Assembly: GCF_002938435.1 (NCBI RefSeq)
Contig: NZ_POQT01000006.1
Location: 109,821 to 173,820 of the forward strand
Source of the DNA: Blastococcus saxobsidens
Lineage (GTDB): Bacteria; Actinomycetota; Actinomycetes; Mycobacteriales; Geodermatophilaceae
Direction of reading: 5' to 3'
Length of the DNA stretch: 64,000 nt
This document shows positions 13,311-29,353 of this stretch, piece after piece (position 1 is the first letter of the stretch; each line of letters begins with the position of its first letter). The position numbers were made by a program, and so were the translations under genes. The notes beneath the pieces are model-generated. The model did no database searches. It was given only the letters and a program-made list of their open reading frames with translations, and was not told the DNA's origin.

Positions 13311-15115
13311 CCGCCGGTCCGGTGCTGTCCGTCCGCGACCTGGTGGTCCGGTTCCGGGTGCACGGCCGGCCGACGACGGTGGTGCACGGCGTCGACCTCG
13401 ACATCTCCCCCGGGGAGACCCTCGGCCTGGTCGGCGAGTCCGGATCGGGGAAGACGGTGACCGTGCTGGCCGCCACGGGCCTGCTCCCAGCGCCACCGGT
13501 CTGCACGGTCCGCGGCACGGTCCTGCTGGGAAGTCGCGACCTGCTCACCATGGACCGGCGGACGTTGCGATCGGTGCGCGGCCGGGAGATCGGCATGGTC
13601 TTCCAGGACCCGATGACCTCGCTGCACCCCTCCTTCCGGGTCGTCGACCAGGTGGCCGAGGCGCTGCTGGTCCACGACCGTGCGCTCGCCCGGGGAGTGG
13701 CGTGCCGACGGGCGATCGAGCTCCTGGAGCAGGTCGGCGTGCCGCACCCCGGGCGACGGGCCGGTGACTACCCGCACCAGTGGTCCGGCGGGATGCGCCA
13801 GCGCGCGATGATCGCCATGGCGATCGCGAACCGGCCGCGGCTGCTCGTGGCCGACGAACCCACGACGGCGCTGGACGTCACGATCCAGGCACAGATCCTG
13901 GAGGTGCTCCGGGCGGCGCGCGACGGGACCGGGGCCGCCACCGTGCTGATCACCCACGACCTCGGCGTCGTCGCGCAGCTGGCCGACCGGATCGCGGTCA
14001 TGAGCGCCGGCCGGATCGTCGAGACCGGGCCCGCCGTGGAGGTCTTCGCCGCGCCCGGCCACCCCTGCACCCGGATCCTGCTGTCGGCGGTGCCGCGACT
14101 CGACCGGCCGGCCGCGCCACGGCCGGAGCCGGTCCGGGGGCCGGCCGTGCTCGAGGTCCGGGACCTGGTCACGCACTACCGCACGCCCGGGGACCGTACG
14201 GTCCGTGCGGTCGACGGGGTGAGCCTCCGGCTGGCGGCGGGCGAGACGCTGGGGCTGGTCGGCGAGTCCGGCTGCGGCAAGACGTCCCTGGCCCGCACGG
14301 TGCTCCGCCTGGTGGACGCCACGTCGGGTTCGGTCCTCTTGCGCGGGACCGACATCACGCAGGCACGTGGTCGCCGGTTGCGCGTGATCCGTCGTTCCCT
14401 GTCGATGGTGTTCCAGGACCCGTACTCGTCGCTCAACCCGCGGATGACCGTCGGTGAGATCGTGGCGCAGCCGCTGCGGGTCGCCGGGCGGTTCCGTGCC
14501 GAGGGTGGTGCCCGCCGGGTGGCCGACCTGCTGGACCTGGTGGGGCTGGACCCGGGGCTGGCGGCGCGCTTGCCCGGGCAGTTCTCCGGCGGGCAGCGAC
14601 AGCGCATCGGCATCGCCCGTGCCCTGGCGCTGTCACCCGAGGTCCTCGTTCTCGACGAACCGGTGTCCAGCCTGGACGTCACCGTGCGGGCCCAGGTCGC
14701 GGACCTGCTCAGCCGCCTGCAGCGCGAGCTCGGCCTGGCGTACCTGCTGATCGCGCACGACCTGGCGCTCGTCCGCGACCTCAGCGACCGGGTGGCGGTG
14801 ATGTACCTCGGGCGGCTCGTGGAGACAGGCACCCGCGACCAGGTCTTCGGCCATCCGATGCATCCCTACACGCGGTCGCTGCTCGCCGCGGTGCCGGTGC
14901 CCGATCCCCGCTGCCGGTACTCAGTGCCGCTGATGCCCACCGGTGACCCGCCGGATCCGGCGGATCCACCCTCAGGGTGCCGGTTCCGCACCCGCTGCCG
15001 CATCGCCACCGCGGAGTGCCCCGAGGTGGTGCCAGAGCTCGTGCCACGCGCCGGCGGCGACCATTTCTGTGCCTGCATCCATCCGGCGGAGATCCCGCTG
15101 CGCCGCGGACCCTAG
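13307..15115 (+). CDS. Fused ABC transporter ATPase (NikD-NikE type, two nucleotide-binding domains)
   Basis: A 602-residue fusion of two ATPases normally made by separate genes. Domain 1 (about 5-265) has Walker A GESGSGKT, signature WSGGMRQR and Walker [13 protein letters not shown]. Domain 2 (about 285-540) has GESGCGKT, signature FSGGQRQR and [12 protein letters not shown]. Each ends in the oligopeptide-type C-terminal extension; the second carries the CRFRTRC...C...C cysteine pattern that binds an Fe-S cluster in many DppD/NikD proteins. It powers the adjacent importer. It converges on the CooC-like gene, with a 4-base overlap of the two ends. Confidence 0.93.
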
Positions 15116-15909
15116 CCCCTCCGCGCCGCTCCGCGGTCCGATGCGACGCTGCCTGCCGGGATCCCGAGCCTGCTTGCCAACCGCTCGACCGCGGCGACCA
15201 CCGGCGCGGTTCCCGGCCAGTCGACCACCGGGACGCCGGCTCCGTCGGCGGCGGTCACCGCGTCGCACCACGGCACGGTGCCGCAGAGGGCCAACCCGTG
15301 CCGGGTGCAGAACTCGGTGACCGCCTCCTCGTCCGCCGCCGACCGGATCTTGTTGGCGATCACGACGGTCCGGGGCACGGGCAGCTCGGCCACCAGTGCG
15401 CCCATCCGACGCACCGTCTCAAGCGAACGGTAGTACGGCTCGGCCACGAGGCAGACGACGTCCACGTGCCGCACGGTGCCGCGGCTGAGGTGCTCCGGCG
15501 ACGCCTCCATGTCGACGACGACCGTGCGGCCGGGACCGTCCCTGAGGTCCTCCAGCAGGCTCGCGACCACGGCGTGCGCCGAGCAGAGGCATCCCTCCTC
15601 CGCGTGCGCGGGCGCGCCCATGCCCATCAGACGGACGCCGTCCGGGGCGAGGACGGCGTGCCGGTCGAGGACCGACTCGACCGGCTCGGTGAGCCCCGTG
15701 CCGCCGCGGCGCCGGGAGACGAGCGCGGGGGGAACCGCCCGAAGGCCGGCGGCGACCTGGGCGGACACGCCCAGCGCCGGTGCCAGGTTGGGATTGGCAT
15801 CGGCGTCCACGGCCACGACGAGGCCGCCGCGCCGAGCGGTCAGCCGGGCCAGCGTGGCGCTGATCGTCGTCTTGCCGGCCCCGCCCTTGCCGGCAACGGC
15901 AATCCTCAC
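15112..15909 (-). CDS. CooC-like P-loop ATPase (MinD/ParA superfamily), paralog 1
   Basis: A 265-residue protein. The GTG start overlaps the PadR stop as GTGA. The deviant Walker A motif GKGGAGKTT, DADANPNLAPALG and VVVDMEASPEHLSRG place it with CooC, the ATPase that loads nickel into CO dehydrogenase. It has the CooC-type CxC motif (EEGCLCSAH, about residue 105), which binds Ni at the dimer interface in CooC1. Last gene of a coupled leftward operon that runs from beside the hydrogenase genes. Probable role: nickel delivery or ATP-dependent maturation of the hydrogenase (inferred). Confidence 0.85.
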   Translation of the reverse strand: MRIAVAGKGGAGKTTISATLARLTARRGGLVVAVDADANPNLAPALGVSAQVAAGLRAVPPALVSRRRGGTGLTEPVESVLDRHAVLAPDGVRLMGMGAPAHAEEGCLCSAHAVVASLLEDLRDGPGRTVVVDMEASPEHLSRGTVRHVDVVCLVAEPYYRSLETVRRMGALVAELPVPRTVVIANKIRSAADEEAVTEFCTRHGLALCGTVPWCDAVTAADGAGVPVVDWPGTAPVVAAVERLASRLGIPAGSVASDRGAARRG

Positions 15910-16280
15910 CGGGACCGGTCGAGGTCGCCGACGATCGCCTCGTACCGGCCCCGGTAGGTCTCCAATGCCCGGGCGACGTCGCGCAGGGACCCGGCGAGCA
16001 CGTGCAGCCACTCCCGGCCCTCGTCGGTGAGCGTGTACGTGCGCCGGGCCGGGCCGGAGGCCGACGGTTCCCAGGACGAGCGGACCAGGCCGTCCTCGTC
16101 CATGGCCCGCAGGCTCCGGTAGAGCCCGCCGGGGTCGACCCGTTCGATCCCGAGGCCGCCCATCTGGGCCAGGAGCTCGTAGCCGTGGGCGGTCCCCTCG
16201 GCCAGCAGGAGCAGCAGGCAGGGGCGCAGGTAGTTGCGGGGCAGCCCGATCGGGACCTCCTCCCCCGTCTCCCCGGTCAT
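15906..16280 (-). CDS. PadR-family transcriptional regulator
   Basis: A 124-residue winged-helix protein: LPRNYLRPCLLLLLAEGTAHGYELLAQM, the wing around PGGLYRSLRAMDEDGLV and RRTYTLTDEGREWL are standard PadR features. A C-terminal helix (LRDVARALETYRGRYEAIVGD) would dimerise it. It is embedded in the operon of hydrogenase accessory genes with overlapping starts and stops, so it is a candidate local regulator of the island. The ligand is unknown. Confidence 0.88.
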   Translation of the reverse strand: MTGETGEEVPIGLPRNYLRPCLLLLLAEGTAHGYELLAQMGGLGIERVDPGGLYRSLRAMDEDGLVRSSWEPSASGPARRTYTLTDEGREWLHVLAGSLRDVARALETYRGRYEAIVGDLDRSR

Positions 16281-17618: not shown

Positions 17619-18971
17619 ATGGCTGACCGGCAGACCAGGACGCCCCGCCAGCAGGACCGCACGCCCGCCGAGGAGCTGCTCGAGGAGCTCGGCCCGGTCG
17701 ACCGATACCACGACTACGAGAGCCTCGGCGACTTCGGGATGCCGGCCCGGGCGATGACCGACGACCTGCTCAGCGGGATGACCCGGCCAGGGCGGTTCGG
17801 CCCGCTGGAGAAGGTGCACGCCTTCTGGTTCGCCGGGGCGAGCTGCGACGGCTGCAGCGTCGCCGTCACCGGAGGCACCACGCCCAGCCTGGAGAGCATG
17901 CTGCTCGGCGCCCATCCCGGGATCCCCCGCATCGCGTTGCACCACCCGGTGCTCAACGTCGAGTCGGGAGCGCACTACCTGCGGGCCGCGGAGCAGGCCG
18001 TCCTCGGCGAGCTCGACGCCCCCTACGTCGTCATCCTCGAGGGCTCGATCATGGATGAGGTCGCGGCCTGGCGGGCGGGTGGCTACTGGTCGGCCCAGGG
18101 CGAGGAGCCGTGGGGCCCCGACGGTGAGCTGCGGCCGGTGAGCGCCACCGAGTGGATCGCCCGGCTCGCCCCGAAGGCCGCCGCCATGATCGCCATCGGC
18201 ACGTGCGCGACCTGGGGCGGAGTCCCGGCCGCGGAGGGCAACCCGACCGGCGCGATGAGCCTGATGGACTTCCTCGGCAAGGACTACCGCTCCGTGCTCG
18301 GCGTGCCCGTGGTGAATGTGCCCGGTTGCCCGCCGATCGGCGACAACTTCAACGAGACGGTGGCCGCCGTCCTGTACTTCCTGCAGGGCTTCGGGCCGCT
18401 GCCGGAGTTCGACGAGCTGGGCCGCCCGGCCTGGCTGTTCGGGGAGACGGTGCACCGGCGCTGCGTCCGCGGCGCGTACTACGAGGAGGGCGTGTTCGCC
18501 GAGGAGTTCGGCGACCCGGAGTGCCTCGTCGAGATCGGCTGCTGGGGGCCGGTCGTGAACTGCAACATCACCTCCCGCGGCATGATCAACCACGTCGGCG
18601 GCTGCATGAACGCCGGAGGCGCGTGCATCGGCTGCACCATGCCCGGCTTCCCCGACAAATTCACGCCGTTCTACAAGCGCCCACCCGGGTCGCTGGCCTC
18701 GACGACGGCCTCGCGGATGGTCGGCAGCCTCATCCGGCCGCTACGCAAGTTCAGCAACAACAACCTCAACCGCGAGGTCCGCTGGGACCGGCAGGGCGCC
18801 TCGCCGAGCGCCTTCTCGCGGGAGAAGTCCGAACCGAGCGCGCTGGCCGACGTGGGCCACCGGTTCTACGACAAGGTGCGCCGCGCGAACGACACCGGCC
18901 GCAACGACGCCGACGTCTGGGGCAAGCGCGACGAGGCCCCCGCCGGCGGCAGCCCGAACCCCCGCGTCTGA
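17619..18971 (+). CDS. [NiFe]-hydrogenase small subunit (group 1h-like clade)
   Basis: A 450-residue protein; AGGAG precedes the ATG. No Tat signal and no C-terminal membrane helix, so it is cytosolic, as in group 1h enzymes. Cluster ligands are evident: proximal C76-D-G-C79 (FAGASCDGCSVAVTGG), IGTCATWGG, VPGCPPIGDN, the distal region HRRCVRGAYYEEG and EIGCWGPVVNCN, and CMNAGGACIGCTMPGFPDKF. Group 1h enzymes have CxxD at the proximal cluster (3Cys-1Asp); here it is CxxC. It is longer than usual because of about 60 extra N-terminal and 60 extra C-terminal residues. It passes electrons from the NiFe site to an unknown acceptor. Confidence 0.95.
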   Translation: MADRQTRTPRQQDRTPAEELLEELGPVDRYHDYESLGDFGMPARAMTDDLLSGMTRPGRFGPLEKVHAFWFAGASCDGCSVAVTGGTTPSLESMLLGAHPGIPRIALHHPVLNVESGAHYLRAAEQAVLGELDAPYVVILEGSIMDEVAAWRAGGYWSAQGEEPWGPDGELRPVSATEWIARLAPKAAAMIAIGTCATWGGVPAAEGNPTGAMSLMDFLGKDYRSVLGVPVVNVPGCPPIGDNFNETVAAVLYFLQGFGPLPEFDELGRPAWLFGETVHRRCVRGAYYEEGVFAEEFGDPECLVEIGCWGPVVNCNITSRGMINHVGGCMNAGGACIGCTMPGFPDKFTPFYKRPPGSLASTTASRMVGSLIRPLRKFSNNNLNREVRWDRQGASPSAFSREKSEPSALADVGHRFYDKVRRANDTGRNDADVWGKRDEAPAGGSPNPRV

Positions 18972-18991: not shown

Positions 18992-20893
18992 ATGTGCTTC
19001 AAGACCCTGCCGGTCGAGTTCGACGAGCGCGGCAACGCGACGCTGCGCGGGGGGATCCCCAACCCGTACGACGTCACCGTGGCCAAGCCCGACGTCGCGC
19101 TGACCGAGGACCAGCGGCGGGAACGGATCGAACGCCTGGTCGCCGCCAACGGGCACATCAAGGACCTCAACATGGACCCGGTCACCCGCATCGCGGGGGC
19201 CCTGGCCGTGCACGTGACCGCCGACACGGACAAGCAGGCCTACCTCGACGCGCACGCGCAGGCCACCCTCTTCCGCGGGTACGAGGTCATCCTGATGGGC
19301 CGCGACCCACGGGACGCCATCTTCGTGTCCTCCCGGGCGTGCGGGGTCTGCGGCGGGGTGCACGCACATGCCGCGGCCTACGCGATCGAGTCGGCGATGG
19401 GCATCTGCCCGCCGCCGATGGGGACCGTCGTCCGCAACATGACCGAGGCGGCGGAGATGGGCTATGACAACCCGCTGCACCTCTACCTGCTGGCCGGACC
19501 CGATTACTCCGAGGTGATCCTCAAGGCCTCGAACCCGGAGCTCTGGCCGAAGGCGGAGTCCTGGCGCTGCCCCAACGCCGACGTGCACGGGTACACCACG
19601 ATGGCCGACCTGGCCGCCGCCCTGAACCCGCTCACCGGCCAGCTCTACCGGGAGGGGCTGGAGTTCACCCGGTTGTCGCGCGAGATGGTCGTACTGCTCA
19701 CGGGCAAGTACCCGCACCCCGAGAACGTGGTGCCCGGCGGGGTGTCGACGACGCTGACGCTGCAGACGCTCAACGAGTTCCACTCCCGGCTCGGCAAGAT
19801 CTTCGACTACGCGCAGCGGATGCTGGCCGTCTGGGACGACATCCCGGCGTTCTTCTACGAAGCGGACGAGCGCTACCAGTTCGTCGGCTACCGGCCGACC
19901 AACCACATCGACCCGGGGTACTGGGACGACCCCTACGCCTACGACGCCACCTACGAGAACTGCAACGCGTGGGGCGAGAAGCGCTGGTCGACCCCGGGTG
20001 TGGTCATCGGCGGCGAGCTGTTGACCACCCGGCTGACCGATATCAACATCGGCTGGGAGGAGTTCGTCGAGCACTCGTACTACGAGGAATCCGCCACCAC
20101 GCGCTACGAGACGGACATGCTGGGCAACCCCATCTCGCCCTACCACCCGTGGAACAAGCGCACGCTGCCCAAACCGGGCGCCCGCGACTGGAAGGACAAG
20201 TACACCTGGGCCTGCACGCCGCGCTGGGACCGTCAGGTCGTGGAGGCCGGGTGCTACAGCCGGCTGCTAGTGACCGCGATGGCCCAGAAGATGCCGGAGA
20301 GCCAGTTCATGTCGGCCACGGGTTCGAGCATGCGGTTCGTGATCCCCAAGGGCGAGAGCGGCGAGCGCGAGGTGGAATGGCACGCGCCGGTGCGGTGGAA
20401 CGCCTTCGAGCGCAACCGCGGCCGGGCCTACCACTACCTGTTCAGCCAGCTGGTCGCGCTGGAGAGCCTGCTCGAGGCCTACAAGCTGATGAAGCAGGGC
20501 GAGACGCGGGTTGCCGCCCTGAACCCCAAGGAGCTGGAGAGGGCCATCCCGATGGACGAGCGCCGCAGCGTCGGCTGGTGGGGCGCCGGACGCGGCTGGC
20601 TCACGCACCACCTGGTGATGGATAAGGGCAAGATCACCAACTACCAGATCTGCACCCCCTCGACGATCAACGCCTCGCCGCGCGACCCGTGGGGTCAGCC
20701 CGGGCCGTACGAGGAGGCGGTCATGAACACGCCGATCATCGAGGACGTCTCCGACCCGGCCCGCTTCACCAGCATCGACATGCTGCGCACCATCCGCAGC
20801 TTCGACCCGTGCATGCCGTGCACGACGCACGCCTATACCGGCGACGGCGAGGTCGTGCGGGACGTGAACACCTGCTCGTGCGGCGCCGACTGA
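18992..20893 (+). CDS. [NiFe]-hydrogenase large subunit (group 1h-like clade)
   Basis: A 633-residue catalytic subunit that oxidises H2 at a NiFe(CN)2CO site. L1 motif: SRACGVCGGVHAHA (C117, C120, H124). L2 motif: SFDPCMPCTTH (C607, C610, H613). Twenty residues follow His613 (AYTG... to CSCGAD) and are the expected peptide removed by an endopeptidase such as those encoded downstream. Full-length similarity to group 1h enzymes is visible (FRGYEV-GRDPRDA, PGGV, YHPWN, PGPYEEAVMNTPI), but L1 is RACGVCGGVHAHA rather than RICGICGDNHATC. The usual RIEGH is RIAGA. The start lies 20 bases after the small subunit. Confidence 0.95.
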   Translation: MCFKTLPVEFDERGNATLRGGIPNPYDVTVAKPDVALTEDQRRERIERLVAANGHIKDLNMDPVTRIAGALAVHVTADTDKQAYLDAHAQATLFRGYEVILMGRDPRDAIFVSSRACGVCGGVHAHAAAYAIESAMGICPPPMGTVVRNMTEAAEMGYDNPLHLYLLAGPDYSEVILKASNPELWPKAESWRCPNADVHGYTTMADLAAALNPLTGQLYREGLEFTRLSREMVVLLTGKYPHPENVVPGGVSTTLTLQTLNEFHSRLGKIFDYAQRMLAVWDDIPAFFYEADERYQFVGYRPTNHIDPGYWDDPYAYDATYENCNAWGEKRWSTPGVVIGGELLTTRLTDINIGWEEFVEHSYYEESATTRYETDMLGNPISPYHPWNKRTLPKPGARDWKDKYTWACTPRWDRQVVEAGCYSRLLVTAMAQKMPESQFMSATGSSMRFVIPKGESGEREVEWHAPVRWNAFERNRGRAYHYLFSQLVALESLLEAYKLMKQGETRVAALNPKELERAIPMDERRSVGWWGAGRGWLTHHLVMDKGKITNYQICTPSTINASPRDPWGQPGPYEEAVMNTPIIEDVSDPARFTSIDMLRTIRSFDPCMPCTTHAYTGDGEVVRDVNTCSCGAD

Positions 20894-20909: not shown

Positions 20910-21674
20910 GTGACCGTCCTCGTCGGCGGGGTCGGCGAGCTCTTCCAGGGCGACCTGGACCTGGGCCGGCTCGCCGTCGAGCGGCTGGTCGCCGAGCCGC
21001 TGGGGCCCGGGGTACTGGTGGAGGAACTGCACTACGGCGCGGTGGCCGTTGCCCAGCGGCTGCAGGAACTGGCCCCGGAGGCGCTGGTGCTGGTCGCCGC
21101 CGTGCGGCGCGACCGGGCGCCCGGCGCGGTCACCCGCCGCCGGGTCGAGCCGCCGCAGCTGGATCCGGCGGAGTTGCAGGCTGCGATCGGCGACGCGGTG
21201 GTCGGATACATCCACGTCGACCTCGTCGTCGAGGTCGCCGCGGCGCTGGGCGCCCTTCCGGGCCGGACGGTTGCCGTCGAGGTCGAACCGGCGCGGACCG
21301 CGCCGGGGAAGCCGCTCAGCCCGGCCGCCGAGGCGGGTCTCGAGGTGGCCCTCGACGTCGTCCGCACCGAGCTGCGCCGCCAGCCCCTGCTGCAGCTGGC
21401 CGACGAGCTGCGCCCCCTCGTCACCGGGTGCCGGCTGGCTCCCTCCCCGGCTCTCACTGCGGTCCACCGGCTGCTCGACGAGCTCCACCACGTCGACCGG
21501 ACCGGCGGCTGGGGCGCCACGTTCGCCCTGCGGGACCGGTTGCGGCTGACCATCGCCACGGAGCCGGCCAGCGAGGGCATGGACCACCGGGACTGGGGCC
21601 TGTGGTGGGCGCTGGTCGAGGAGCTGGACCGCGTGCAGGCGCTGGAGGCGGTGACCGCGCGGGCGGTCCCCTAG
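20910..21674 (+). CDS. Divergent HycI/HybD-fold protein, probably not a working protease
   Basis: A 254-residue protein with a GTG start 16 bases after the large subunit. The first 80 residues follow the hydrogenase endopeptidase fold (VLVGGVGELFQGDLDLGRLAVERL, then ELHYGAVAVAQRLQELAPEALVLVAAV). The residues that bind the nickel used for recognition are replaced: the acid in GN-L-DDG-G becomes L, and VVDTVD becomes VAAVRR. The C-terminal 100 residues are unlike proteases. I infer a structural or chaperone role on the large subunit. The active enzyme is more likely the one at 23695. Confidence 0.75.
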   Translation: MTVLVGGVGELFQGDLDLGRLAVERLVAEPLGPGVLVEELHYGAVAVAQRLQELAPEALVLVAAVRRDRAPGAVTRRRVEPPQLDPAELQAAIGDAVVGYIHVDLVVEVAAALGALPGRTVAVEVEPARTAPGKPLSPAAEAGLEVALDVVRTELRRQPLLQLADELRPLVTGCRLAPSPALTAVHRLLDELHHVDRTGGWGATFALRDRLRLTIATEPASEGMDHRDWGLWWALVEELDRVQALEAVTARAVP

Positions 21675-22450: not shown

Positions 22451-23676
22451 CGCCAGCCTCCCGGCTCCCCGCAGGCCGCCGCGGCCGCGTTCAGCGAGGC
22501 CGCCAGCCGCTGCCACTGCGGCATCGCGAACCGGGCCATGGCCGAGGCGAGCACCGCGCGCAACCGCTCCTCGTCCGGCTCCCGTCGGCCGGCGCAGCCG
22601 TGCACCACCGCGTTCACCAGGCCCTCGTAGCCGCGCGGTGGCAGCTCCAGCACCACCGAGAGCAGGCTCTCGGCCAGGGCGTAGGCATCGGCGGGACGGT
22701 CGATCAGCCCGTCGAGGAAGGTCCGTACGGTGGCGTCCCGCTCGCCCGGCGACGCATCAACCAGGCGCAGGACCTCCTCGCGGAGCACCGGCGTCCAGCG
22801 GTCCCGGGACTCGCTGTCGAGGACGGCGATGACGTCGTCGTCCGCCGGTGGCAGGGCGGCGAGCACCTCCGCCGCCTGATCCCGGACCGGCGGTGCCGCG
22901 GCCGGGACCGCCAGCGCCTGCCGGGCCGCGAGCCGGGCGCGCACGGCGTCGCCACCGCGGGCGGCGGCCAGGGCCAGGTTCGCCTTGACCATCGCGTACT
23001 CGGCCGGGCGCACCGATCGCGGGGAGGCGGCGAGCGCCCGGCGGAAGGCGGCCGTCGCTGCGGGCACGTCCCCCAGCGCGAGATGGGCGAGACCGAGGAC
23101 GTTCGCCGCGGCACCGAGCCCGACGACGTCGTCGGCCCGCTCGGCCGCACCGACCGCCTCGTCGAGCAGCGTCACGGCCGCGGCCGGCTCGCCGGCGGTC
23201 AGCAGGGCGGCGCCGTGCTCCCGCGCCGCTGCCGCGGCCTGCGCGAGCTGCCCGCTCTCGAGGAAGAGCCGTTGCGCCCGCTCCCAGCAGGCGCAGGCAC
23301 CGGCACGGTCCCCGACATCGGCTAGGACCAGCCCGAGGTTGTGCCGCGCCGCCCCCTCCTCCGCGGGCCGACCCAGCGCCGAGAACCCGTCGGCCGCCGC
23401 GGTCAGGATCGCCGCGGCCTCGTCGTGGCGGCCGGCACCGCGCAGCGCGATGCCGAGCATGGTGCCGGCCTTCGCCTCCTCCAGCCGCATCCCGGTCTCC
23501 CCGAAGACCGCGCGGGCCACGGTCAGGGCGTCGAGGGCTCCGGTCGTGTCGCCGGCCGCGAGCCGGCCGGCGCCGAGGTGGAACTGGGTGGTCGCGTGCT
23601 GCACGGGATAGCGCGACACCGGGAACCGTGCCAGCCTCGCCCGCAGGTCCCCGGCCCGGTCCGGTACGGCCGTCAT
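22447..23676 (-). CDS. TPR-repeat protein
   Basis: A 409-residue alpha-helical protein. At least five tetratricopeptide-type repeats are visible in residues about 30-270 (FHLGAGRLAAGDTTGALDAL, GTMLGIALRGAGRHDEAAAIL, HNLGLVLADVGDRAGACACW, NVLGLAHLALGDVPAATAAF). TPR domains mediate protein-protein contacts, so a scaffold in hydrogenase assembly is plausible. Co-transcribed with the ligase-fold gene. Its ATG is only 18 bases from the divergent protease gene. Confidence 0.78.
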   Translation of the reverse strand: MTAVPDRAGDLRARLARFPVSRYPVQHATTQFHLGAGRLAAGDTTGALDALTVARAVFGETGMRLEEAKAGTMLGIALRGAGRHDEAAAILTAAADGFSALGRPAEEGAARHNLGLVLADVGDRAGACACWERAQRLFLESGQLAQAAAAAREHGAALLTAGEPAAAVTLLDEAVGAAERADDVVGLGAAANVLGLAHLALGDVPAATAAFRRALAASPRSVRPAEYAMVKANLALAAARGGDAVRARLAARQALAVPAAAPPVRDQAAEVLAALPPADDDVIAVLDSESRDRWTPVLREEVLRLVDASPGERDATVRTFLDGLIDRPADAYALAESLLSVVLELPPRGYEGLVNAVVHGCAGRREPDEERLRAVLASAMARFAMPQWQRLAASLNAAAAACGEPGGWR

Positions 23677-23682
23677 GCGCCT

Positions 23683-23696
23683 ATCCTGCGCAGGAT
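23683..23696. promoter_or_regulatory. Perfect palindrome in an 18-bp divergent gap
   Basis: ATCCTGCGCAGGAT lies between the TPR gene (start 23676) and the protease gene (start 23695), running into the latter's ATG. It supplies AGGA to both messages as a shared ribosome-binding region, and could also bind a regulator. No room exists for conventional promoters here. Confidence 0.35.
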
Positions 23697-24210
23697 GCGC
23701 GCGATCGTGGCCTGCTTCGGCAACGTGCTGCGCGGGGACGACGGCGTGGGGGCGGCCGTGGCCGCGGCGCTGCGGGCGGAGCCGCTGCCCGCCGGCGCGC
23801 GGGTGCTGGACGTCGGGATCGGCGGCATCCACCTGGTGCAGGAGCTGCTGACCGGCGTCGACGTGCTGCTGGTCGTCGACACCGTGGACCTGGGCCGGCC
23901 GGCCGGCACGGTCGTCGTGCAGCGCCCGACCGTGCGGGACGTCACCACCCTGTCCGTGCACGAGCGACGCGACGAGCTGGCCGACATGCACCTGGCCTCC
24001 CCGGAGCGCGCGCTGATGGTGGCCCGCGGGCTGGGCGTGCTGCCACCGGTCACCTGGATCGTCGGCGTCCAGAGCACCGACACCGCCGAGCCGCGACACG
24101 GGCTGAGCGAGCCGGCGCGGCGGGCCGTGCCCGTGGCGGCCCGGGAGGTGCGGCGGCTGCTCACCACGGAGGCGGCGGGCTGGGTACCGGCCCGCCCGGA
24201 CGAGGCGTGA
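23695..24210 (+). CDS. Hydrogenase maturation endopeptidase (HybD/HycI family)
   Basis: A 171-residue protein with the full family pattern: VACFGNVLRGDDGVGAAVA at the N-terminus, LLVVDTVDLG (Asp that binds nickel) and LSVHERR (His). The family removes the C-terminal peptide of the large subunit after NiFe insertion, and the large subunit here has a 20-residue tail after His613. The gene overlaps the convergent NifU-like gene by 50 bases at its 3' end, so the two ends are read in both directions. Confidence 0.92.
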   Translation: MRAIVACFGNVLRGDDGVGAAVAAALRAEPLPAGARVLDVGIGGIHLVQELLTGVDVLLVVDTVDLGRPAGTVVVQRPTVRDVTTLSVHERRDELADMHLASPERALMVARGLGVLPPVTWIVGVQSTDTAEPRHGLSEPARRAVPVAAREVRRLLTTEAAGWVPARPDEA

Positions 24211-24772
24211 TCTGCAGGAGCACCTGAGGAGGCGGCGGGGAGCCGGGCGGCGGATGCGCCGGCGCGCCGTCGTCCGGGGCCACGTCCAGCGCGACGAAGC
24301 CGGGGAGGTTCTCCCGCAGCGCCACCTCCACGCCCTGCCGCAACGTCTCCCCCGCGGACGTGCACCCCGAGCAGGTCCCCGACATCCGGACCCGGACGAC
24401 GCCGTCATCCATCCCCAGCACCTCGACCGCGCCCCCGTGCCCGGCGATGTACGGGCGGACCTGTTCGAGCGCCGCCTCCGCTGCGGCGACGTCGTCGACG
24501 CCGACACCGTAGGCCTCGAACAGCCAGTCGACGGCCGCGTCCGCCCGACGCTGCTCGGCCAGGCCGGGGCCCAGGCCGGCGGCCAGGCGCGTCACGGCCA
24601 GCCGGTGTACCGCGTCGACACCGTCGAGCAGCTCGAACACCCGGCCGCGGACGTCGTCGTCGAGCGCCTCGATGTCGCCGAGCAGTTCCTCGAGTCGGTC
24701 CAGCAGCGGGCCCAGCCGGGCCAGCGACTCCTCGACGGCCGGCACCGTCTCCCGGACCGGCGGATCACTCAC
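24161..24772 (-). CDS. NifU-like Fe-S scaffold protein
   Basis: A 203-residue protein with a GTG start overlapping the DUF1059 stop. Residues about 1-95 are helical. Residues about 96-170 are the NifU C-terminal domain (VRPYIAGHGGAVEVLGMDDG, then GTCSGCTSAGETLRQGVE with the CxxC cluster site). The proline-rich tail is poorly conserved. It probably supplies Fe-S clusters to the small subunit, which needs three. Confidence 0.88.
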   Translation of the reverse strand: MSDPPVRETVPAVEESLARLGPLLDRLEELLGDIEALDDDVRGRVFELLDGVDAVHRLAVTRLAAGLGPGLAEQRRADAAVDWLFEAYGVGVDDVAAAEAALEQVRPYIAGHGGAVEVLGMDDGVVRVRMSGTCSGCTSAGETLRQGVEVALRENLPGFVALDVAPDDGAPAHPPPGSPPPPQVLLQITPRPGGPVPSPPPPW

Positions 24773-24944
24773 GAGCCGGGCGCACCTTGGTGACGGCGTA
24801 GTCCACCAGGGTGTCGTTCAGCGTGACCCCGTGCCGGGCCTTCGCGTGCTCGGCGACGGCGGCGACCAGCGCCTCGGGGGTCTCGGCCCGCGTCACGTGC
24901 CGGCAGGCGACCCCCACGTCGCTGCACCGGAACTGCACCGCCAT
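24765..24944 (-). CDS. DUF1059 small protein
   Basis: A 59-residue protein (MAVQFRCSDVGVACRHVTRA...). It has the DUF1059 pattern: an N-terminal C-x(5-6)-C pair and a helical ETPEALVAAVAEHAKARHG segment. Function unknown. A second member is at 34370. It is co-transcribed with the one-helix membrane proteins and the NifU-like gene. Confidence 0.82.
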   Translation of the reverse strand: MAVQFRCSDVGVACRHVTRAETPEALVAAVAEHAKARHGVTLNDTLVDYAVTKVRPARE

Positions 24945-24976
24945 GAGCTCTCCCCTCGATTCCCATCCCGCGCCCA

Positions 24977-25243
24977 TCAGGACGCCCGGGCCGCGGGGAC
25001 ACCTTGCAGCTCGACCGCCAGGTCCTCGAGTGCGTCCGCGACGGCGGCCAGGTCCCCGTTGATCTCGCCGACCAACCCGTTGACCGGCTGCACCCGGTGC
25101 GCGATGGCATCGACCCCGAACACCACCTTGCCGAGGGTGTCGGTCAGCCGGCGGAGCAGCAGCACCACCCACAGCAGGTAGCCGGCCAGGGCGAGGACGA
25201 GCACCCCGGTGACGATCAGTGCGGCGATGGCGGCGACGGACAC
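24977..25243 (-). CDS. One-helix membrane protein of the hydrogenase island (e)
   Basis: An 88-residue protein with a GTG start. A transmembrane helix (AALIVTGVLVLALAGYLLWVVLL) is followed by LRRLTDTLGKVVFGVDAIAH and a helical tail (VGEINGDLAAVADALEDLAVEL). It is clearly paralogous to the protein at 16665-16946, so both accessory operons carry the same type of membrane protein. Confidence 0.78.
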   Translation of the reverse strand: MSVAAIAALIVTGVLVLALAGYLLWVVLLLRRLTDTLGKVVFGVDAIAHRVQPVNGLVGEINGDLAAVADALEDLAVELQGVPAARAS

Positions 25244-25252
25244 GGCGCCTCC

Positions 25253-25510
25253 TCAGGCCCGGGCGGCGAGCCGCCGGAGTGCGGTGACGTAGCCGACGGC
25301 GGCGCCGGTGACGTCTCCCACCCGTTCCCGGGTGGTGACCAGCACCGGCACGGGCTCGAGCGCGACGGTGATGCCGACGCCGTGCTCGAGGATGTCGTCG
25401 GCGTAGCGCACCGCCTCGCGGGCCGGGCGGATCACGTAACTCGCCAGAGCGACGACCACCGGAGCCACGACGAGCAGCCCGATGGCGCTCATGACCCACA
25501 GGACCACCAT
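25253..25510 (-). CDS. One-helix membrane protein of the hydrogenase island (d)
   Basis: An 85-residue protein with ATG at 25510. A transmembrane helix (VMSAIGLLVVAPVVVALASYVI) is followed by a hydrophilic segment (RPAREAVRYADDILEHGVGI) and a C-terminal helix. It is the first gene of the second leftward accessory operon, as protein (a) is of the first. The two are similar in layout but only weakly in sequence. Confidence 0.75.
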   Translation of the reverse strand: MVVLWVMSAIGLLVVAPVVVALASYVIRPAREAVRYADDILEHGVGITVALEPVPVLVTTRERVGDVTGAAVGYVTALRRLAARA

Positions 25511-25560
25511 GCGTTCTCCCTGGTCGACACGGAGTGCGGTCTGCTGGCAGTGTGCTCCTG

Positions 25561-25583
25561 GTAGGTGATCCACGCCACTACCC
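25561..25583. promoter_or_regulatory. Shared hydrogenase-island promoter element, site B
   Basis: On the minus strand this reads GGGTAGTGGCGTGGATCACC then TAC. It is identical at 19 of 23 positions to site C (27937-27959) and shares GTGGCGTG and CACCTAC with site A (17557). It sits in the 98-bp gap between a membrane-protein gene and a CooC-like gene. Confidence 0.55.
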
Positions 25584-25608
25584 GTCGCGGACAACCCGGG
25601 AGACCGCC

Positions 25609-26403
25609 ATGGCCACCGTCACGAGCCCGCGTTCCCTGGTCCTGGGCGTGGTCGGCAAGGGCGGTGTCGGCAAGACCACGGTCGCCGCGCTGCTCGCCCG
25701 CGCGTACGCCGACCGGGGACGGCGGGTCGTGGCCATAGACACCGACTCGAACCCGAACCTCGGCCTCTCGCTCGGACTGTCGCCGGAGGAGACCGACGCC
25801 GTGCCGGTGCTGCCGCGCAGCGCCGTGATGGGCAACGGCGCCGGGGCCTCCGCCGGCGAGCTGCTGGCCGAGTACGGCCGGTCCACGCCCGCCGGACCGA
25901 CGCTGCTCTCCGCGATCAGGGTCGCCGCGGCCGGCGCCGGCTGCACCTGCGGCGGGCACGCCACCGTCCGCAGCCTGCTCGCCGACGCCCTCGAGGACGT
26001 CGATCTGACCCTGGTGGACATGGAGGCCGGGCTCGAGCACCTGAGCCGGGCCGGGGGGACCCTGGCGCACGCCGACCTGCTGCTCGTGGTCTGCGAGCCG
26101 ACCCGCAAGTCGGTGCTCACCGCCGTCCGGACCGCCGCGCTGGCCGGTGAGCTCGGGATCCCGCAGGTCCTCGCGGTCGGCAACAAGGCACGCACGGCCG
26201 AGGACGCGGAGTTCCTCCGCGGCGCGCTCGCCGCCGACGGCGTCCCGCTGATCGCCGTCCTCCCCTACGACGCCGAGGTGGCCGAGCAGGACCGCGCCGG
26301 GATCACGAGCACTCCGACTGTCTCGCCCGCCGCCGCGCGGGAACTCGACACCGTCGTCGCCGCGCTGGACGACGCCGCCGCCCGGCTCCTCCCCCGCCCG
26401 TGA
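25609..26403 (+). CDS. CooC-like P-loop ATPase, paralog 2
   Basis: A 264-residue protein. Deviant Walker A GKGGVGKTT, DTDSNPNLGLSLG and LVDMEAGLEHLSRAGG are CooC-type. The Ni-site motif is GCTCGGH (CxC, about residue 110). The rightward gene of the divergent pair at 25.5 kb; it converges with paralog 3, 9 bases apart. Likely nickel-handling or maturation ATPase for the hydrogenase (inferred from family and context). Confidence 0.86.
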   Translation: MATVTSPRSLVLGVVGKGGVGKTTVAALLARAYADRGRRVVAIDTDSNPNLGLSLGLSPEETDAVPVLPRSAVMGNGAGASAGELLAEYGRSTPAGPTLLSAIRVAAAGAGCTCGGHATVRSLLADALEDVDLTLVDMEAGLEHLSRAGGTLAHADLLLVVCEPTRKSVLTAVRTAALAGELGIPQVLAVGNKARTAEDAEFLRGALAADGVPLIAVLPYDAEVAEQDRAGITSTPTVSPAAARELDTVVAALDDAAARLLPRP

Positions 26404-26412
26404 GACCTGCGC

Positions 26413-27153
26413 TCAGGCCGCCTGCGCTCGCAGCAGACGGGTGGCCAGGCCGGCCAGTGCGCCGACGGCGGGGGCGTCCGGTGCCGCGTCCAGCGGCGCC
26501 ACCCCCTGCCGCTCGGCGGTGACCACCGCCTCGTCCTCCGGGACGACGGCCACCTCGCAGGAGGGGAAGGCGGCCCGCACCCGCTGCTCGTCCGCGTCGT
26601 CCCGCACGCGGTTGGCGACCACGACCACCCGGCCCAGCCCGGCCAGCGTCACGGACTCCGCGGCACGGCGACCCACCTCCAGCGACGCGGCCGTGGGTTC
26701 GACCACCACGACGACGACGTCCACCGGAGTGTCGCCGAGTCGGAGGACGGTGCCCAGCCCCGCCTCGAAGTCGGCGACGATGATCCCGCCGGGCTGTTCC
26801 AGCTGCCCGAGCAACTGCTCAGGTGAGACCCCGCACTACGGGCAGCCCGGCTCCGGGTTCTGGATCGCCGACACCACGGCCAGCCGCACGCCGTCCGGGG
26901 CATCCACGCCGAACCGGTCGACGAGGTCGTCGACGCTGACGGCGTGCTCGGTCTCGCCCGCGTCGACCGCCTCCCGCACGGTGACCAGCCGCTCGGTCTC
27001 CGCCTCGCCCAGCCCGAGGGAGATGCCCAGGTTGGGGTTGCTGTCGCAGTCCAGGGCCAGGGTGCTGCGCCCGGAGCGGGCGAACGTGCGCGCCAGGACC
27101 GCCGACGTCGTGGTCTTGCCGGAACCACCCTTGCCGACCACCGCGACCTTCAT
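26413..27153 (-). CDS. CooC-like P-loop ATPase, paralog 3, with in-frame UAG in its CxC motif (candidate selenoprotein)
   Basis: From the ATG at 27153 the frame reads MKVAVVGKGGSGKTTTSAVL, then LDCDSNPNLGISLG, to NPEPGCP. A TAG at 26838-26836 (codon 106) is followed in the same frame by CGVSPEQLLGQLEQ, IIVADFEAGLGTV and a normal C-terminus ending at 26413. The total is 246 residues. Paralogs 1 and 2 have GCLCSAH and GCTCGGH here, so the UAG occupies the second Cys of the nickel-binding CxC motif, giving C-P-U. Neither half is a complete ATPase alone. A 7-bp hairpin follows the UAG. The start overlaps the stop of paralog 4 as ATGA. Selenocysteine is the preferred reading; a nonsense mutation is the alternative. 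Confidence 0.8.
26806..26838 (-). promoter_or_regulatory. Candidate SECIS-like hairpin after the UAG codon of CooC paralog 3
   Basis: After the UAG (26838-26836) come 12 bases, then CCUGAGC (26823-26817), loop AGUU, then GCUCGGG (26812-26806). This is a 7-bp stem with one U-G pair. The loop starts 19 nt after the UAG, against 18 nt in the methyltransferase gene and about 17 in E. coli fdhF. Both loops here contain GU. Confidence 0.5.
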
Positions 27154-27905
27154 GCCGCCTCCCTCGACCGGAGCGCCTCGACAAGGCACCGTACTGCCGC
27201 AGCGGCCGGCCCGTCAGGGGCCTGGTCCAGCAGCGGGACGCCGGCTCGGGCAGCGGCCGCCACGCCGGGGTCGAACGGAACCGCCCCGACGACCGGGAGC
27301 CCCGTCCCCTCGGCGACCCGCCGCGCGTCGTCGCTGCCGTGCACCTTGTTCGCCACGGCCAGCACCCGCGGGCTCCCCGCCATGGCCGCGAGCCGGGTCA
27401 GCCGCCGGCCGGTGAGCAGTGAGGCGGGTCCGGGCTCCACCACGACCAGGAAGGTCGAGGCGTAGCGGCCCCAGGTCATGAACGGCTGGCGGGTGCCACC
27501 GGGAAGGTCGCCCACGATGCTCCACCCCTCCCCCGGGAGGTCGTCGAGCACGCGCTGGAAGCCGAAGTGCGCGGGCGTGTTGTCCCACCGCGGGCCGCGG
27601 GCCTTGCCCAACTGCAGGAACCGGACGCCGTCGGGGCCCTGGACGGCGTAGCGCTCGATTACGCCCGAGCCGGTCAGGCCCGCCCGCAGCCGGTAGCGCC
27701 GGCGGCCGTCCTCCTCGTACTCCTCGACCACGTCGTCGGGCAGGCCGGCGTCCGACCCCGGCGTCCCCAGCGCGAAGGCCAGCCCCGGCATCGGATCGGA
27801 GTCCAGCGCCAGCACCCGCTCGCCCGTCCTCGCCAGCAGGCGGGCGAAGGCGCCGGCCAGCGAGGACTTGCCCGCACCACCCTTGCCTACGAACGCCACC
27901 CGCAC
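27150..27905 (-). CDS. CooC-like P-loop ATPase, paralog 4 (no CxC motif)
   Basis: A 251-residue protein with a GTG start. Walker A is GKGGAGKSS and LDSDPMPGLAFALG replaces the usual DxDxNPNL. The region that carries CxC in the other three is GKARGPRWDNTPAHFG, without cysteine. IVGDLPGGTRQPFMTWG is an unusual switch region. It probably acts with paralog 3, to which it is translationally coupled, perhaps as a partner that does not bind nickel. Confidence 0.83.
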   Translation of the reverse strand: MRVAFVGKGGAGKSSLAGAFARLLARTGERVLALDSDPMPGLAFALGTPGSDAGLPDDVVEEYEEDGRRRYRLRAGLTGSGVIERYAVQGPDGVRFLQLGKARGPRWDNTPAHFGFQRVLDDLPGEGWSIVGDLPGGTRQPFMTWGRYASTFLVVVEPGPASLLTGRRLTRLAAMAGSPRVLAVANKVHGSDDARRVAEGTGLPVVGAVPFDPGVAAAARAGVPLLDQAPDGPAAAAVRCLVEALRSREAA

Positions 27906-27936: not shown

Positions 27937-27959
27937 GGATAGTGGCGTGGAACACATAG
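27937..27959. promoter_or_regulatory. Shared hydrogenase-island promoter element, site C
   Basis: GGATAGTGGCGTGGAACACA then TAG lies between CooC paralog 4 and hypC. It matches site B at 19 of 23 positions. Downstream, TAGAGT (27966-27971) could be the -10 for hypC, with CACACT at a similar spacing after site B. Confidence 0.55.
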
Positions 27960-27998
27960 CGGTGCCTAGAGTGAGCGCACCATCGCGAGGAGCCGCCC

Positions 27999-28322
27999 AT
28001 GTGCCTCGGCCTCCCGGGCCGGATCGTGGAGATCAGCGACGTGGCGCAGCAGCGCGTCACGGTCGACGTCGACGGGGTCCGGCGCGACGTCTCCGCCGCC
28101 CTCGTCGGGCTCGAGGGCCCCGGCTCGGCCCAGGTCGGTGGATGGGTGCTGGTGCACGCCGGGTTCGTGGTCGAGGCGATCGACGAGCGCGCGGCGCAGG
28201 AGATCCTGGCCGACCTGCAGACGCTCGGCGACATGTACGAGAACGAGCTCGGCGACCCCTCCCCCGTCGCCGACGGCACGGAGGGCGCCCCTCCCCTGAC
28301 CGTCCCCGGCGGCCGGGGATGA
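27999..28322 (+). CDS. hypC: Hydrogenase maturation chaperone HypC
   Basis: A 107-residue protein beginning MCLGLPGRIVEI, the invariant HypC start whose Cys2 carries the Fe(CN)2CO group and binds the large-subunit precursor. VDVDGVRRDVSAALV and GGWVLVHAGFVVEAIDE complete the beta-barrel. About 25 extra proline/glycine-rich residues extend the C-terminus. GAGGAG precedes the ATG. It is the only Hyp protein in the window and leads the ABC-importer operon (stop/start overlap ATGA). Confidence 0.94.
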   Translation: MCLGLPGRIVEISDVAQQRVTVDVDGVRRDVSAALVGLEGPGSAQVGGWVLVHAGFVVEAIDERAAQEILADLQTLGDMYENELGDPSPVADGTEGAPPLTVPGGRG

Positions 28323-29353
28323 CGGTGCCGTCGGAGTCGGTCGCGGAGCCGGACGGGAAGTGGCGCCGGCGCCCCGCGCCGGCCGTCCCGGCCGCCGTCG
28401 CGCTCCTGCTGCTCGCCGCCTGCGGTGCCGACAGCGGCGCGACGGACGTCGGTACGGGACGGGCCGAGCCCATCACGCTCTACACCTGTCTGAGCGACCA
28501 GTCGATCCAGCCGGTGATCGAGGCGTTCGAGGCCCGTCCCGATGGCGGGCAGGTCGACCTGTTCCGCGCACCGACCGGGGAACTCAACGCGCGGGTGGCG
28601 GCCGACGCGCGTTCGGGCGGGTTGCGCGCCGACGTGGTCTGGGGCTGCGATCCGCTGACCGTGCAGGCCTTCGTCGACCAGGGCCTCGTCGGCGGGTGGA
28701 CGCCGCCGGGTGCCGACACGGTCCCCGTCGAGTTCCGCACCCGCGACTACGTGGGTGGCCACGTGCTCTACATGGTGGCCGTGCACCGCACGGACACCGC
28801 GGCGCCCCGGACGTGGTCCGACCTGGCCGAGGACGGGTACACCTCGCTCGCGGTGCCCGATCCCGCCGTGGCCGCCTCGGCGCTCGGCGCGCTCGGCTGG
28901 TTCGCCGCCGAACCCGCCTACGGTGTCGACTTCTTCGAACGGCTGCGGGCCCGGGGGGCCGTCCAGGTGAGCACGCCGGACGCGGTCACGACCGGCGTGG
29001 CCCAGGGAATCTACGACGCGGGGATCACCATCGCCAACTCTGCGTACGCCGCGAAGGAGGACGGTTCGCCGGTCGACGTCGTCTGGCCCGAGCCCGGAGC
29101 GGTGGCCGTCTACGGCCCGCTCGCGCTCGCCACGGGCAGCGCCGACTCCGACGTCGCGAAGAGCTTCATCTCCTTCGTGGTGAGCGAGGAGGGGCAGACG
29201 GTGCTCGGGGCGTCCGGCGCCTACCCCACCGTGCCCGGCGTCGAGGGCCCGACCGTGCCCCCCGGCGCGCCCGTCGTCTCCCCCGACTGGGCCGCGATCG
29301 CGGCGGACAAGGACGCGGTGCTCGCGGAGTACCAGCAGGTCTTCGGCGGCTGA
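28319..29353 (+). CDS. ABC transporter substrate-binding lipoprotein (iron/Fbp type)
   Basis: A 344-residue protein. The lipoprotein signal ends LLLLAACGADSG. The mature part starts PITLYTCLSDQSIQPVIEAFEA and has LRADVVWGCDPLTVQAF and ANSAYAAKEDGSPVDVVWPEPGAVAVYGP, typical of ferric-ion binding proteins of the AfuA/FbpA kind. The gene overlaps hypC by 4 bases. Iron supply for the hydrogenase cofactors is a reasonable inference, but other anions or metals are possible. Confidence 0.85.
   Translation: MTVPSESVAEPDGKWRRRPAPAVPAAVALLLLAACGADSGATDVGTGRAEPITLYTCLSDQSIQPVIEAFEARPDGGQVDLFRAPTGELNARVAADARSGGLRADVVWGCDPLTVQAFVDQGLVGGWTPPGADTVPVEFRTRDYVGGHVLYMVAVHRTDTAAPRTWSDLAEDGYTSLAVPDPAVAASALGALGWFAAEPAYGVDFFERLRARGAVQVSTPDAVTTGVAQGIYDAGITIANSAYAAKEDGSPVDVVWPEPGAVAVYGPLALATGSADSDVAKSFISFVVSEEGQTVLGASGAYPTVPGVEGPTVPPGAPVVSPDWAAIAADKDAVLAEYQQVFGG

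Follow-up and report, generated by a model that had tools for sequence, protein, structure and literature searches.

A predicted UAG-encoded selenocysteine at the putative metal site of a CooC-like ATPase encoded beside a [NiFe]-hydrogenase in Blastococcus saxobsidens

A candidate selenoprotein ATPase in Blastococcus saxobsidens

Analysis of a 64,000-nucleotide stretch of the Blastococcus saxobsidens genome (hereafter the window) revealed a gene (26413..27153, minus strand) that encodes a candidate selenoprotein, a CooC-like P-loop ATPase of 246 amino acid residues with U106, when its in-frame TAG is read through. Comparative sequence evidence leaves hardly any doubt that the UAG at codon 106 is translated as selenocysteine (Sec), and the full reading, in which UAG is Sec and the protein is an ATPase that supplies the adjacent [NiFe]-hydrogenase with nickel, is considered quite probable. 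The predicted Sec codon, number 106 of 246 (26836..26838, minus strand), was assigned from the reading of the frame together with the exchange of TAG, TGA and Cys codons in orthologues. It is found in the context CCG GGC TGC CCG TAG TGC GGG GTC (P G C P * C G V), as an earlier interpretation of this DNA (the sequence-only reading) had described it with PGCP-stop-CGV. The resulting motif, C104-P-U106-C107 (26833..26844, minus strand), has a cysteine directly after the Sec codon, and the encoded protein combines a deviant Walker A motif (GKGGSGKTT) with the SIMIBI/MinD fold. The sequence-only reading had also held that the frame is open on either side of the TAG and that neither half is a complete ATPase; the frame is indeed open on either side, and the P-loop is located in the upstream part only. 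The two CooC-like ATPase paralogues of the same island, to which it had ascribed GCLC and GCTC at this place, indeed carry these motifs (15112..16011, minus strand, and 25534..26403, plus strand, respectively).

When the window was scanned mechanically for stops flanked on either side by coding-like sequence, the codon-106 TAG was the only TAG returned. Three TGA rows passed as well (26401, 40639 and 25255), and those at 26401 and 40639 appear to be the ends of adjacent genes. The TGA at 25255 (minus strand) is flanked by two coding-like stretches of the DUF1059 region.

Codon state among orthologues

All 120 listed database homologues (of 1191 found), 63-80% identical to the 26413-27153 protein, possess Cys at codon 106 and read [GD]CPCCG; such a protein-database sample is biased toward Cys because predicted proteins end at stops. 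The DNA of 24 distinct orthologue loci contained TAG in five cases, TGA in twelve and a Cys codon (TGC or TGT) in seven, so the Cys/UAG swapping for which a comparison of orthologues had been proposed does occur, with UGA as a further state. In these counts, L027, L028, L029, L030 and L041, which are places in G043, G067, G104, G070 and G026, respectively, were counted once; ten of the 30 loci of the species scan described below (L043-L052), being distant or short matches, were left out; and L097 and L098 enter the codon count only. Within the family Geodermatophilaceae, an orthologue (E up to 1e-50) was present in seven of 112 genomes, all seven with a stop (five TAG and two TGA); among the 22 remaining genomes of the window's genus, none had an orthologue at E up to 1e-60. 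Cultured strains that possess the gene include Blastococcus mobilis DSM 44272, Geodermatophilus chilensis B12 and Modestobacter sp. DSM 44400. Fifteen further loci, from Nocardioidaceae, Sporichthyaceae, Pseudonocardiaceae, Mycobacteriales, Acidimicrobiales, Euzebyales and other taxa, came from a scan limited to one genome per species. A class-wide sample had an orthologue in four of 394 genomes, namely the window's own, L097 (G370), L098 (G140) and L099. The last of these is the same DNA as L039, and the sample thus adds two loci, both of them Cys-type and devoid of the GAGCAGTTGCTC hairpin core.

Stops scattered elsewhere in the gene had been named beforehand as evidence against Sec; the 17 Sec-type loci contain 21 internal stops, every one of them on Cys column 104 or 106 and none on other codons. 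Codon 104 is also TGA in L033, L036, L038 and L042 (double-TGA codons 104-106 at 1818-1826, 2635-2643, 6310-6318 and 6310-6318, respectively), which gives Sec-x-Sec-Cys (UAUC or UPUC) followed by a single downstream hairpin. In these four divergent orthologues, UAUC/UPUC is possibly a Sec-x-Sec metal motif. Two loci, L031 and L039, are truncated by contig ends. The Cys-type orthologue L040 was matched in two overlapping pieces in different frames (6001-6725), that is, frame-shifted in a MAG; it was retained in the codon and tRNASec counts and left out of the Leu-codon, codon-constraint, pN/pS, tree and internal-stop analyses.

Predicted SECIS hairpin

A predicted bacterial SECIS hairpin (26806..26823, minus strand) has a stem of 7 bp, an AGUU loop separated by 19 nt from the Sec codon and a folding energy of -10.6 kcal/mol, and fits the bSECIS model as outlined in the available sections of PMC13188914. 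The same architecture, with the 7 bp stem and AGUU loop in a hairpin that starts 12 nt past the Sec codon, was found in all 17 Sec loci. Paired cells amounted to 98.2% over 16 distinct Sec rows vs 71.4% over five Cys rows, and the GAGCAGTTGCTC core was lost in six of the seven Cys loci. Constraint extended to synonymous choice: among 65 columns with an invariant residue, a single codon was kept in six, four of which are the EQLL of the hairpin, and TTG was used for the hairpin Leu in 17 of 17 cases vs 38 of the 401 Leu codons in the remainder of these genes. Five of the seven stem pairs are invariant, and covariation consists of the outer pair (C-G in 11, G-C in three and unpaired in two of the 16 Sec rows) and one-sided changes at another pair. 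A two-sided change was seen in only one of the seven pairs, a count reached by 311 of 500 shuffles, and that pair fails in two of the 16 rows. When compared with shuffled sequences, the 18 nt hairpin, cut out by eye, gave a z of -3.65, and the whole 48 nt stretch folded no better than its shuffles (z 0.54). The hairpin alone is no proof of Sec, because the Cys gene of L023 (2635-2682) retains a full SECIS-like hairpin in a host without detected tRNASec or SelD; this locus looks like a recent Sec-to-Cys change.

Decoding machinery and the nature of the UAG codon

The search of the same genome for Sec machinery, which the sequence-only reading had suggested, retrieved tRNASec(CUA), SelA, SelB and SelD. 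The tRNASec with anticodon CUA (C15:13444-13535) scored 65.8 bits as tRNA-Sec (cut-off 47), the other match above this cut-off being a tRNA-Ser. It is followed by selA and selB, both above the NCBIfam cut-offs, with selD about 700 bases away on its other side. Two FdhA-like genes of this genome (C3:67663-68415 and C25:38499-39233; L085 and L086) contain one in-frame TAG each (QARI-TAG-HS), followed by a predicted hairpin.

Among the genomes with orthologues, the tRNASec anticodon was CUA in all five of the TAG type and UCA in ten of the twelve of the TGA type. The search found no tRNASec in the other two TGA genomes, G067 (82% complete) and G121, or in any of five Cys genomes examined, which are MAGs of unstated completeness; it covered five of the seven Cys genomes (G370 and G140 being left out). 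In the genus of G067, three genomes possess a UCA tRNASec. Calculated by hand and ignoring kinship, the chance of a perfect 5/10 codon-anticodon split is 1 in 3003, and that of the tRNASec presence/absence split (15/17 vs 0/5) is about 8 in 10,000. SelD was present in all seven family genomes holding the gene vs none of the five Cys genomes. Across the family, tRNASec was detected in 108 of 112 genomes, and the anticodon, read in 48 of these 108, was CUA alone in 40, UCA alone in seven (genera g5, g6 and g7) and both in one (G058). Across these genomes, the codon follows the anticodon of the host's tRNASec.

That the TAG is an ordinary stop, left by pseudogenization or by a sequencing error, is extremely unlikely. 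The window's genome is a draft of 86 contigs and many of the relatives are MAGs, but the stop stands in the same column in five TAG and twelve TGA genomes, and an error at 26836-26838, which had been raised as a possible objection, is very unlikely because the same TAG occurs in four other genomes. The part 3' of the stop is under purifying selection, with pN/pS values of 0.16-0.50 after the stop and 0.16-0.40 before it in seven pairs. In the four of these pairs to which the window belongs, values were 0.36-0.50 after the stop and 0.24-0.40 before it; this somewhat weaker selection would favour an ordinary stop, but the codon-level constraint on the hairpin speaks against one. A virtually negligible probability is likewise assigned to the reading of UAG as pyrrolysine, which would accord with the label tRNA-Pyl that ARAGORN gives to the CUA tRNA: the same tRNA exceeds the tRNA-Sec cut-off, its gene immediately precedes selA and selB, and other members of the family combine the UCA form with UGA codons. 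The ARAGORN label was seen for the CUA tRNASec of L007 (1501-1596), which automatic annotation could misname.

Metal site and relation to known ATPases

The best PDB sequence match of the 26413-27153 protein was CooC1 (3kje, E 7.7e-13), and phmmer aligned C104 and U106 with Cys112 and Cys114 of CooC1, which places two chalcogens in CxC spacing at the ligand position. According to the portion available of PMC6006190, the two CooC1 cysteines are zinc ligands at the dimer interface for which nickel competes, and the CooC of R. rubrum does not bind nickel tightly. An AlphaFold model with Cys at position 106 had a pLDDT of 91.3. In the fold comparison, MinD and NifH chains reached about the same Z as CooC1, and CooC thus cannot be distinguished by its fold alone. 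Invariant cysteines in 56 sequences were restricted to positions 36, 104, 106 and 107, and C107 was never replaced in the 17 Sec-type loci. C104/U106 is probably a metal site, as predicted from the alignment, and the pair 104/106 is likely to be the working site because Sec occurs at 104 and 106 and never at 107. The C-x-Sec nickel site proposed by the sequence-only reading thus gains support from the correspondence with CooC1, with nickel as the ion that we infer.

Two other identities were considered for the Sec ATPase and rejected. A NifH-type Fe protein would have two separate cluster cysteines per subunit, and the second cluster Cys of NifH is unconserved here; as regards HypB, the protein gave no TIGR00073 match at E up to 0.01. 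Among the NCBIfam profiles, no model scored above its cut-off.

The nearest known system is CooC1 of Carboxydothermus hydrogenoformans (3kje, 3kjg, 3kjh and 3kji), in which the second ligand is Cys, whereas the window's protein likely has Sec. The window's ATPase differs further from CooC1 in an extra Cys after the second ligand, in a tandem partner without CxC and in a neighbourhood that contains a hydrogenase instead of a CODH, no Ni-CODH being present among the 22 frames of the window that were scanned with Pfam. That an Mrp/MinD-family ATPase can be a HypB is shown by the ATPase-type HypB of Thermococcus kodakarensis, in which, according to the available part of PMC7055735, no nickel site was identified and which has no Sec. 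This HypB was absent among the sequence or fold matches listed for the window's ATPase. The CobW-related family NF041053 is presumably a metallochaperone-type P-loop family. Its selenoprotein, which Table 1 of PMC13188914 lists with a UxxC motif, likewise unites a P-loop with Sec, but it belongs to another family and has UxxC, not C-P-U-C.

Genomic neighbourhood and hydrogenase maturation genes

The Sec gene overlaps by 4 nt a tandem CooC-like ATPase gene with no Cys at the motif (27150..27905, minus strand). Close by, on the plus strand, lies the gene of HypC, a hydrogenase maturation chaperone (27999..28322; TIGR00074 74.3 bits, cut-off 48). The small and large subunits of a [NiFe]-hydrogenase are encoded at 17619..18971 (plus strand; PF14720 and PF01058; 5aa5_A HofK, E 5.5e-108) and 18992..20893 (plus strand; PF00374; 5aa5_C HofG, E 5.6e-132), respectively. 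Their best solved relatives are Ralstonia HofK/HofG (5aa5), which we take to be an actinobacterial-type, group 1h hydrogenase. Further genes encode a possible hydrogenase maturation protease-like protein (20910..21674, plus strand; TIGR00072 41.3 bits, under the cut-off of 47.45), a HycI-type hydrogenase maturation protease (23341..24210, plus strand; PF01750 33.3 bits, cut-off 23) and two recurring neighbours, a NifU-like domain protein (24161..24772, minus strand; PF01106) and a DUF1059 protein (24765..25499, minus strand; PF06348). The frame adjoining hypC (27947-29353) contains a solute-binding protein domain (PF13531). As the 5' part of this frame overlaps hypC, translation probably begins at a more downstream position.

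A match to the CxC-less partner was located directly upstream of the Sec gene in 18 of 20 other loci, the exceptions being L031, which starts inside the Sec gene, and L035, in which none was found. The retention of this tandem partner suggests a heterodimer. Recurring neighbours in the 20 loci were a third CooC-like ATPase (16), a NifU-like protein (13) and a HycI-type protease (12), and a hydrogenase subunit was encoded near the Sec gene in seven, many of the loci ending before that position is reached. The ATPase pair of L082 (Blastococcus mobilis) is accompanied by hypF, hypE, hypD, a sugar-isomerase-like frame and hypC, and tblastn and motif searches gave the same order in L083 (Geodermatophilus chilensis). 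Neither stretch gave a hypA or hypB match by tblastn. In that search the HypB query was an entire stop-to-stop frame that began with residues outside the gene, and the HypE query had been excised at approximate coordinates; both names are therefore taken from separate evidence.

The large subunit of this hydrogenase (E up to 1e-150) was encoded in five of the 112 family genomes, all of them among the seven with the Sec gene. HypB was above its cut-off in three of 11 genomes searched (G104, G070 and G119), and among the five family genomes with this hydrogenase only G104 exceeded it; there, HypB adjoins a second hydrogenase and HypA. Weak HypB matches were obtained in G026 and G043, and none at E up to 1e-10 in the window's genome (G000) and G023. 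The window's genome thus has a [NiFe]-hydrogenase and no HypB match at this threshold, although it is rated 100% complete. HypD, HypE and HypF were not found there in contig 6, contig 1 (260 kb), contig 2 (100 kb) and three shorter stretches, which were searched by tblastn and partly by motif; of the Hyp proteins sought, only HypC was recovered.

Proposed function and alternative explanations

According to the mechanism proposed here, the hairpin would be bound by SelB, which would then insert Sec at the UAG, and the ATPase would form an ATP-dependent dimer, either with itself or with the adjacent CxC-less ATPase. At the interface of this dimer, C104 and Sec106 would bind a metal ion, with nickel the most likely, in the manner of Cys112 and Cys114 in CooC1. 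Once the iron centre had been assembled by HypC and its partners, the large subunit of the hydrogenase would receive the metal ion, and in genomes without HypB the ATPase pair would take over the role of that protein. Since HypB was not found in most of these hosts, the simplest assumption is that the ATPase pair delivers nickel to the hydrogenase; from this genomic context, delivery to the adjacent hydrogenase is given somewhat better than even prospects. Finely balanced is the broader proposal of a maturation route in which a two-gene CooC-like ATPase with a selenolate nickel site replaces HypB, with Cys-x-Sec in most Sec lineages and Sec-x-Sec in the four divergent ones, and which was kept through a UGA/UAG change within one family.

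The same selenoprotein might instead employ Sec in redox chemistry, with a C104/U106 or U106/C107 selenenylsulfide switching the ATPase or its dimer by oxygen. The three close chalcogens of C-P-U-C would fit such a role, and most uncharacterised selenoproteins are expected to be redox proteins in the available part of PMC13188914. Nevertheless, Sec replaces Cys at the two positions that align with the metal ligands of CooC1, C107 is unchanged in the Sec loci and the genes are situated among hydrogenase maturation factors, which makes a redox switch rather unlikely. It is also doubtful that the ATPase pair serves another metallocentre, for example in an iron-sulfur or iron-donor step of hydrogenase assembly: the frequency of the NifU-like gene (13 of 20 other loci) and a fold common to NifH and ApbC would favour this, but the second cluster Cys of NifH is not conserved in the 56 sequences, and HypB is not above its cut-off in four of the five family genomes with this hydrogenase. 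Nickel delivery by a Sec-containing ATPase is retained as the preferred reading. If it is true, the protein would represent an unusual selenoprotein class, a metal-delivering ATPase and not a thioredoxin-like redox protein, in which Sec occupies a metal-ligand position of a chaperone linked to hydrogenase, and the Sec-x-Sec form would offer four selenolates per homodimer. The gain of selenolate over thiolate in nickel capture and release is chemistry that can be tested.

Novelty and evolution of the Sec codon

The primary report of UAG-Sec in Geodermatophilaceae is said to be that of Mukai et al. 2016. In the portion available of PMC5330540, the code published for this family involves the same tRNASec(CUA) and the same codon as the window's gene, and the proteins named, formate dehydrogenases (FDHs), a UGSC-motif protein and AhpC, do not include a CooC-like ATPase. 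The sequence-only reading had supposed that a selenolate ligand in a nickel chaperone beside a [NiFe]-hydrogenase is undescribed. As regards the protein, this stands: no CooC-like ATPase appears among the 119 selenoprotein families in Table 1 of the 2026 catalogue (PMC13188914), and a literature search of titles and abstract starts, outside subscription journals and bioRxiv, retrieved no Sec-containing CooC-like ATPase. It does not extend to the use of UAG for Sec in Geodermatophilaceae, which is already published. The window's protein is likely to represent a new selenoprotein family and a new variant of CooC-type ATPases. Genes of this kind are split in two by gene finders that halt at UAG or UGA.

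The protein tree of 21 orthologues requires six codon-state changes, and neither the TAG genes nor the Cys genes were monophyletic in any of the 200 bootstrap trees (0%). Support is good for only four of the 18 inner branches, which by themselves are compatible with a single origin of the TAG genes and a single origin of the Cys genes. The natural series of Cys, UGA, UAG and double UGA lends itself to the study of Sec codon switching. The genome G058 harbours two tRNASec genes, one with UCA and one with CUA (C17:1173-1263, L100, and C11:15836-15927, L129, respectively), which may reflect a dual Sec code, transfer or contamination.
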